A stretch of DNA of 32,139 nucleotides from Candidatus Aramenus sulfurataquae (GTDB lineage Archaea > Thermoproteota > Thermoprotei_A > Sulfolobales > Sulfolobaceae): positions 1 through 32,139 of the forward strand of contig ASRH01000010.1 in the NCBI GenBank assembly GCA_000565255.1, read 5' to 3'. Numbering within the stretch: position 1 is the stretch's first letter; each line of letters opens with the position of its first letter. A program made the translations under genes and the position numbers. Shown piece after piece: positions 7,946-9,797 of this stretch. The notes under the pieces were generated by a model. The model saw only the letters and a list, made by a program, of their open reading frames with translations. It ran no database searches and was not told the DNA's origin.

Positions 7946-8422
7946 ATGCCAAGGGAACTCACTCCCCTCGAGCAGTTACAGCTACTTGTCCCTGGGTATA
8001 GGGGGTACAAGGTCAAGGACCTAATAAGGCAGGACGACTTCCTGGTGAGGCAATCAACTATCTCTAAGCTCCAGGCTGCTATACACAACTTAGAGGCTCT
8101 GGAGTCACAGATAGCCTCCTCTAACCCATTCTCGCCCCTACTGAAGAGGATCGAGTTTGTCATCTCTCAGATGAGGACGCTAGTAGGACAGATCCTCTCA
8201 GCCCAAGGTGGAGGGGCGGACGTATACGCTAGGTACAAGGTTCACGCAGAACAGCTGGACGAGATAGTTAGCAACGACCTCCAAATGGTTTCGTTGGCTA
8301 ACCAAGTTGCAAACCTCTCCGCTTCCCTGGACAACCTGGAGCAGATCCCTCCCTTGCTAGAGCAGATAAGGCAAGTACTTATCTCCAGGGAGAAGCTCTT
8401 CCTTCCCCCAGAATATAGATAG
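7946..8422 (+). CDS. Coiled-coil protein of the SPFH gene set, function unknown
   Basis: 158 residues, almost entirely helical, with heptad-like runs at about 35-80 and 95-150 (QSTISKLQAAIHNLEALESQ; VANLSASLDNLEQIPPLLEQ). The N-terminal block PGYRGYKVKDLIRQDDFLVR is the most motif-like part and suggests a conserved family, but I cannot name it. There is no signal peptide or membrane helix. It lies 42 bp upstream of the SPFH protein gene on the same strand and has its own promoter. Its location suggests a cytosolic partner of the SPFH scaffold, which is inference. Confidence 0.85.
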   Translation: MPRELTPLEQLQLLVPGYRGYKVKDLIRQDDFLVRQSTISKLQAAIHNLEALESQIASSNPFSPLLKRIEFVISQMRTLVGQILSAQGGGADVYARYKVHAEQLDEIVSNDLQMVSLANQVANLSASLDNLEQIPPLLEQIRQVLISREKLFLPPEYR

Positions 8423-8464
8423 AAATCCTTTTATCTTTACTTAGCGTAATAATTATGAACGCTC

Positions 8465-9400
8465 ATGTCTATTCAATTTAGAGGTCAAGTTATTTCCACG
8501 GAATTGGAGAACGGAACCTCCTACATGTCACAAGACACGATAATTTTTAGGTATCCAAAGGAGAACATAACCTCCAAGTCCCTCATCATTGTCCAGCCCA
8601 CGGAGCAGGCAGTGGTCGTGATCCAAGGCCAGATCGCGGCTGTGTTGCCACCTGGAACGCACAACGTGCAGTCGCCGCAGAACCCGATTTCGTCGTTCCT
8701 CTCCAAGTTTAGGTATACTTCCCTTCCATTCGACACCGTTGTGTACTTCGTGTCCACGACTAGGCACGAGGTGAGGGTAGCTGGGGTAAGCCAGACAGAC
8801 GACCTAGTTCCCTTAGAGTATGAGGTGGCGGTGTACTTTAGGGTGGTGAACCCCGGGCTCCTTGTCACAAACGTCCAGTTCCACGAAGCGTTTTTCAAGG
8901 ACGGCAATCTGGCAAACTACATATCTCCAATAATAGACCAAGAGGTGAGCCAAGTCCTAAACCACGTGAAGCTCACTGAGGTCTTCAAGAAGTTCGCCGA
9001 CATATCAACTGCAGTAACGGCGGGGCTAAAGACCTTCCTAGGGGAAATCGGGGTCGAGCTCATCTCAGTGAGGATAACGAAGCTGATACCTCAAGACCCA
9101 GAGTTAAGGAGGATACTACAGCTGAGGGATCTCGGGCTGGAGGTATACGACTCGGTGAGGATGGGGCTAGCTAGGCTGTTGGCGGAGAGCGGCAACCCAG
9201 CGAGCGTTAACATGGCCCTAGGTGTACCATATTTCCCCACTCTCTCGTCCATTGTCATTGGCTACCCATACTTCCCGATCTTAGGCGGTGCCCAGGCTCC
9301 CTCACAACAGCCCCCAGCAGCTGGGGTAAACATACAACAAGTGTTAAAACAGACCTTCGGAGCGACGTCCGGAGGTGCTCAAAGTGGCTCCTCCCAGTAG
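8465..9400 (+). CDS. SPFH (band-7) domain protein, YdjI/virion-core-like
   Basis: 311 residues. Residues about 30-235 form an SPFH domain. FRYPKENITSKSLIIVQPTEQAVVV is followed by a PPGTHNV turn, as in the soluble YdjI/virion-core-protein-like branch, which lacks the N-terminal membrane anchor of flotillin and stomatin. The tail (about 270-311) is rich in Ala, Gln, Pro, Gly and Ser. SPFH proteins oligomerise into membrane-associated scaffolds or cages. In Bacillus, YdjI recruits phage-shock (PspA) proteins with a membrane partner. Here the next gene encodes a four-helix membrane protein that could serve as anchor. A TATA-like CTTTTATCT at 8428-8436 suggests a short leader. Confidence 0.85.
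   Translation: MSIQFRGQVISTELENGTSYMSQDTIIFRYPKENITSKSLIIVQPTEQAVVVIQGQIAAVLPPGTHNVQSPQNPISSFLSKFRYTSLPFDTVVYFVSTTRHEVRVAGVSQTDDLVPLEYEVAVYFRVVNPGLLVTNVQFHEAFFKDGNLANYISPIIDQEVSQVLNHVKLTEVFKKFADISTAVTAGLKTFLGEIGVELISVRITKLIPQDPELRRILQLRDLGLEVYDSVRMGLARLLAESGNPASVNMALGVPYFPTLSSIVIGYPYFPILGGAQAPSQQPPAAGVNIQQVLKQTFGATSGGAQSGSSQ
9372..9377 (+). promoter_or_regulatory. Shine-Dalgarno site for the membrane protein
   Basis: GAGGTG within the end of the SPFH gene, 6 bases before GTG 9384. An earlier in-frame GTG at 9375 is itself part of this motif, so 9384 is the better start. Confidence 0.6.
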
Positions 9401-9797
9401 GATATTGGCTTGGAACGTGGCGTCGGCCATTGGCTACTCCTTCATCTTGACCTTTGTCATGGCGGTCATCTCCTTAATAGTGAAGGCATTTTACCCTCCT
9501 ACTGTCTTTGAAATCGCTCCAATAATGTCGTTGCTCAAGAGCCCTGCCTCTGGCGTAGTACAGTTGATAGTCTTGGCTCTCTTGGTATCCTTTTCCTTGC
9601 CTGTGGGGAGCAAGGTAGCAGAAGGAAACCTCAAACAAGTGAGAAAGGTAGCAGTATACGCAGGGGTCAGCTACTTGGCGTTCTCGCTTTTACCCTTTGC
9701 CTTTACCACGCCCTATCTTCAGACCACGGTGGGGCTTGTCATAGCCTATAACGTGTTGAACGGGGCTTTCTCCGGTACCTTAGCCACTTACTTCTAG
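9384..9797 (+). CDS. Four-helix membrane protein, partner of the SPFH protein
   Basis: 137 residues from GTG 9384, overlapping the SPFH gene by 17 bp, so the two are translationally coupled. Four hydrophobic segments are visible (about 8-36, 54-74, 86-106, 112-134). A short charged loop (EGNLKQVRKV) lies between helices 2 and 3, probably cytosolic. No catalytic motif was seen. Tight coupling to an anchor-less SPFH protein suggests that it tethers the SPFH assembly to the membrane. This is inference from gene order. Confidence 0.8.
   Translation: MAPPSRILAWNVASAIGYSFILTFVMAVISLIVKAFYPPTVFEIAPIMSLLKSPASGVVQLIVLALLVSFSLPVGSKVAEGNLKQVRKVAVYAGVSYLAFSLLPFAFTTPYLQTTVGLVIAYNVLNGAFSGTLATYF

Follow-up and report, generated by a model that had tools for sequence, protein, structure and literature searches.

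Three consecutive forward-strand genes of the thermoacidophilic archaeon Candidatus Aramenus sulfurataquae (Sulfolobaceae; GenBank assembly GCA_000565255.1, contig ASRH01000010.1, positions 1 to 32,139, the whole of which is here called the window and is contig C10 of the 1.8-Mb genome) almost certainly form a functional unit. CC (7946..8422) encodes a soluble four-helix-bundle protein of 158 amino acids (aa), SPFH (8465..9400) a 311-aa protein of the Band_7/Band_7_1, YdjI type that lacks both a transmembrane (TM) anchor and a C-terminal zinc ribbon, and TM4 (9384..9797) a four-helix membrane protein. All three open reading frames were recovered at the positions given by the original prediction. 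Genome comparison revealed that CC and SPFH are a selected unit across the Thermoproteota, and that all three genes are a selected unit within Sulfolobaceae. On balance, we favor a model in which CC and SPFH would build a scaffold at the inner membrane face that is tethered by TM4, the tether having been exchanged in evolution.

The tight association of CC and SPFH was evident from a survey of 300 Thermoproteota genomes, in which the CC profile matched 154 genomes and the SPFH-type profile 151, with CC present in all 151. No genome carried SPFH only; the three with CC only were G214 and G235, both with marginal scores, and G232. Fisher's test for this co-occurrence gave p = 6e-84, a value that is not phylogeny-corrected and is inflated by species relatedness. 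The adjacency of the two genes, which recurs across dozens of families, is unaffected by relatedness: among 79 loci containing both, drawn from the SPFH search as well as the CC search, the intervening gap was at most 100 bp in 63, and in 70 CC preceded SPFH with both on one strand. An apparent 504-aa CC-SPFH fusion (G118, L132:5646-7160) was discarded as a frameshift or an assembly error, because the genuine C-terminus of CC is encoded in a different frame.

Within Sulfolobaceae, SPFH was present in 30, CC in 29 and TM4 in 28 of 31 genomes, which include one fragmentary assembly (G183); one complete 3.1-Mb genome (G175) lacks all three genes. SPFH lies within 1.3 kb of CC in 24 of the 26 loci having enough flank, with CC in opposite orientation in three (L038, L049, L054). 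TM4 is located 3' of SPFH on the same strand, mostly overlapping it or separated by no more than 70 bp, with wider gaps of 343-727 bp in three loci (L053-L055). The three genes are therefore neighbors in other Sulfolobales as well. As a control, we clustered all flanking genes up to five positions away in 26 loci representing 11 Sulfolobaceae genera, and no further family covered more than two genera. The differing orientations and an occasional split of the genes could suggest that they are neighbors by chance or operon drift, without a joint function. Such an origin is exceedingly improbable, and genomic evidence already refutes it to the extent that such evidence is able to, given the co-occurrence (uncorrected for phylogeny, as noted above), the adjacency in dozens of families and the persistence of the trio while every other flanking gene reshuffles. 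Two local peculiarities were seen in this family: in genus g5 (L054, L055), two SPFH copies flank CC and TM4 as a result of local duplication, and in one species the gene directly before CC (L049:6609-7520) encodes a four-TM protein of 303 aa that is channel-like by eye only.

We then examined the SPFH protein, whose domain scored above the curated-profile cut-off (Pfam Band_7, 1.9e-24; Band_7_1, 5.9e-14) and has profile matches to stomatin structures. Its peak 19-residue hydropathy is 1.29, compared with 2.97 in the second SPFH protein of this genome, a stomatin with a TM anchor that is encoded by a separate gene elsewhere (L001). The absence of any TM-grade hydrophobic stretch bears out the earlier description of the window protein as anchor-less. 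The C-terminus is a low-complexity Gln/Gly/Ser tail. Two unusual relatives were noted: at L053:8527-9728 a break of about 300 bp, resembling a small insertion, splits the SPFH match close to residue 240, and L072:7955-8476 (G136) holds a second, short Band-7-like open reading frame with a stop, apparently decaying. SPFH proteins often work in membrane-protein quality control or as assembly chaperones (PMC2636767), and band-7 proteins near PspA have been interpreted as chaperone-like (PMC11237479). The module could, in the same way, act around a protease in the manner of HflK/C or prohibitins, with TM4 as client or co-factor. We regard this as unlikely: in Sulfolobaceae the module has no other conserved neighbor family, and hence no protease or NfeD gene next to it; the SPFH protein is of the Band_7_1/YdjI type; and the stomatin type typical of stomatin/NfeD (SPFH1) operons, with which the module shares the SPFH fold, is the separate gene just mentioned.

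TM4 shows about four TM segments in its hydropathy profile, in agreement with the predicted four-helix membrane protein. Conserved features are a KxFYPP motif and a charged loop between segments 2 and 3, which is positively charged in most Sulfolobaceae members (exceptions L054, L057 and L058). Both termini and this positively charged loop are predicted to lie inside.

The presence of TM4 goes with the absence of a zinc ribbon on SPFH. TM4 is restricted to two families, Sulfolobaceae and a second one, f29. In all 26 loci in which it is found near SPFH, SPFH lacks CxxC pairs, whereas among 52 loci without TM4, SPFH carries a zinc ribbon in 47 and a SHOCT-type tail in three (L068-L070). Outside the two families, the SPFH C-terminus bears paired CxxC zinc ribbons or a SHOCT-like tail, and the common neighbors are two mutually related proteins of about 320 aa that begin with a zinc ribbon and end in TM helices. 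A protein of about 110 aa with three to four TM segments occurs alone or alongside them. One of the zinc-ribbon families matched, in profile comparison, the zinc-ribbon neighbor of an SPFH of this kind from the bacterium Comamonas (96.7%, E 3.6e-10), with the match spanning only about 100 N-terminal columns. Homology of TM4 to the 110-aa protein was considered and rejected (hhalign probability 0.1); TM4 is not detectably related to these proteins, and the tether therefore looks replaced rather than modified. In the SPFH tree, f29 joins Sulfolobaceae with a support of 99, apart from the Pyrobaculum-like family f20, as would be expected if the TM4 variant had moved between lineages.

Next, we characterized the CC protein, for which no Pfam, NCBIfam or PDB relative was found. 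AlphaFold2 confidently predicted an all-helical fold (pLDDT 87.5, pTM 0.84), with bundle helices at residues 24-59, 64-85, 101-124 and 128-150 and a short N-terminal helix preceding the PGYRGYK block. The original prediction of an all-helical protein was hence correct, but its coiled coil was not: instead of extending as a coiled coil, the modeled helices pack into a compact four-helix bundle. The conspicuous N-terminal sequence block (PGYRGYK-K-L-R-DD-R) also proved meaningful: P16, G17, G20 and Y21 within PGYRGYK are invariant in 24 relatives, as are D31, R35, G89, D111 and R148. Among the fold matches listed, the HIP1R THATCH core ranked first by TM-score (0.61), with an E-value that is not significant. 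Searches of bacterial plasmids returned no CC relative, and searches of viral collections no relative of CC or TM4. The window's CC is a member of an unnamed family accompanying YdjI-type SPFH proteins; neither this family nor a Thermoproteota pairing of CC with SPFH was found described in the open-access literature.

The structure of CC also bears on a possible link to archaeal ESCRT. SPFH proteins with a coiled coil and a zinc ribbon occur in Meth_adaptin ESCRT loci (PMC10936438; Makarova et al. 2024), which resemble the present module in combining an archaeal SPFH, a helical element, a zinc ribbon and a tie to membrane remodeling. The module might serve as an accessory of the ESCRT/Cdv machinery in division or the budding of vesicles, in which case SPFH-CC would recruit ESCRT-III. 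Unlike those loci, it encodes CC as a gene of its own, and in Sulfolobaceae no ESCRT gene family is conserved among its neighbors. Moreover, CC as a PspA/ESCRT-III relative was rejected, as it shows no similarity in sequence or in the modeled fold, a compact bundle and not a hairpin. Taken together, we judge a role in ESCRT function improbable.

The closest known counterpart is the bacterial pspA-ydjGHI system of Bacillus subtilis, in which YdjI is anchor-less, has a zinc finger and depends on YdjG/YdjH (PMC8581546). Both systems share an anchor-less Band_7_1 SPFH, adjacently encoded membrane proteins and a helical soluble partner. In contrast to the Bacillus system, the archaeal module has an unrelated four-helix bundle in the position of PspA, a four-TM protein in place of YdjG/YdjH, and no C-terminal zinc ribbon on the window SPFH. 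PspA (PF04012) had no match in any of the 31 Sulfolobaceae genomes searched, with positive controls, and the TPM domain of YdjH had none among the proteins scanned, at E <= 1 for the window and 0.1 for the neighbors. A YdjG-type zinc-ribbon and TM protein is not adjacent in the window; such proteins, resembling YdjG, lie by the pair in many other Thermoproteota. Co-occurrence, adjacency, the Band_7_1 SPFH and these zinc-ribbon/TM neighbors in relatives all lend strong support to the initial proposal of a single module that follows YdjGHI/PspA-like logic with different partners. The analogy is sound in the sense of working alike; lacking PspA, a TPM protein and, in the window, the SPFH zinc ribbon, the module is not a member of that system.

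Based on these data, the preferred model of a membrane-tethered scaffold can be laid out as follows. SPFH would oligomerize in the cytosol, as expected from SPFH biology, with CC as its dedicated partner; their linkage is observed, and the proteins probably form a physical complex. The assembly would be held at the membrane by TM4 through its cytosolic parts, a tether function that the correlation with zinc-ribbon absence renders fairly likely. TM4 would thereby substitute for the zinc-ribbon/TM proteins and the SPFH zinc-ribbon tail of other Thermoproteota. The likeliest activity of the assembly would be to stabilize or organize the membrane, as YdjI does in linking PspA to YdjG/YdjH in Bacillus; a membrane maintenance or stress role is nevertheless conceivable rather than probable, and the membrane-microdomain or envelope-stress function first suggested is still a hypothesis. 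This is the least certain step of the model, and in it CC would occupy the position of the helical effector, standing in PspA's place because PspA is absent from Sulfolobaceae.

Several observations weigh against this model. In one genome (G167), the CC-SPFH pair occurs with neither a detectable TM4 nor a zinc ribbon, and the CC tree, while compatible with f29 beside Sulfolobaceae, does not settle its placement. In the two species of one Sulfolobaceae genus (G084, G108), CC lies 29-31 kb from SPFH-TM4, and CC may be transcribed apart from these genes. The N-terminal helix of CC is not strongly amphipathic, and a read-through AlphaFold2 model of CC-SPFH, built from a two-row alignment, was too poor (pLDDT 49) to yield a predicted contact. 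No expression or stress data on the module were found in the literature: a solvent-stress paper on S. acidocaldarius makes no mention of SPFH, stomatin or band 7 proteins, and open-access work on SPFH in Sulfolobus and Metallosphaera, and on butanol stress, contained nothing on the locus.

Regarding the locus itself, TM4 has its own Shine-Dalgarno motif (GGAGGTG, 9371..9377, forward strand) within the SPFH coding sequence, and its GTG start at 9384 overlaps the SPFH stop by 17 bp, both as originally described; an alternative GTG at 9375 would yield a longer protein. The 42-bp gap between CC and SPFH contains a possible TATA-like element (8429..8436, forward strand; CTTTTATC region), read from sequence alone, so SPFH-TM4 may perhaps be transcribed separately from CC here, too. 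The flanking aldehyde-oxidase-type and thermosome genes are outside the three-gene unit. Elsewhere in this genome, a decayed second CC copy with in-frame stops was observed (L178:4629-4814; G000:C15:6628-6813).

Overall, CC and SPFH make up an old pair, apparently not described before, that is the archaeal counterpart of a bacterial system for membrane maintenance; the YdjGHI logic is already known, and the CC partner family, which is as yet unnamed and occurs in roughly half of the Thermoproteota species sampled, is new. More tentatively, CC-SPFH might be a PspA-independent membrane-maintenance system of Thermoproteota with CC as a new helical effector, whose tether was swapped in thermoacidophiles and passed between them. 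The module offers a natural swap of the membrane tether and occurs in compact, three-gene form in genetically tractable Sulfolobus, making the question of how PspA-less archaea maintain their membrane directly testable.
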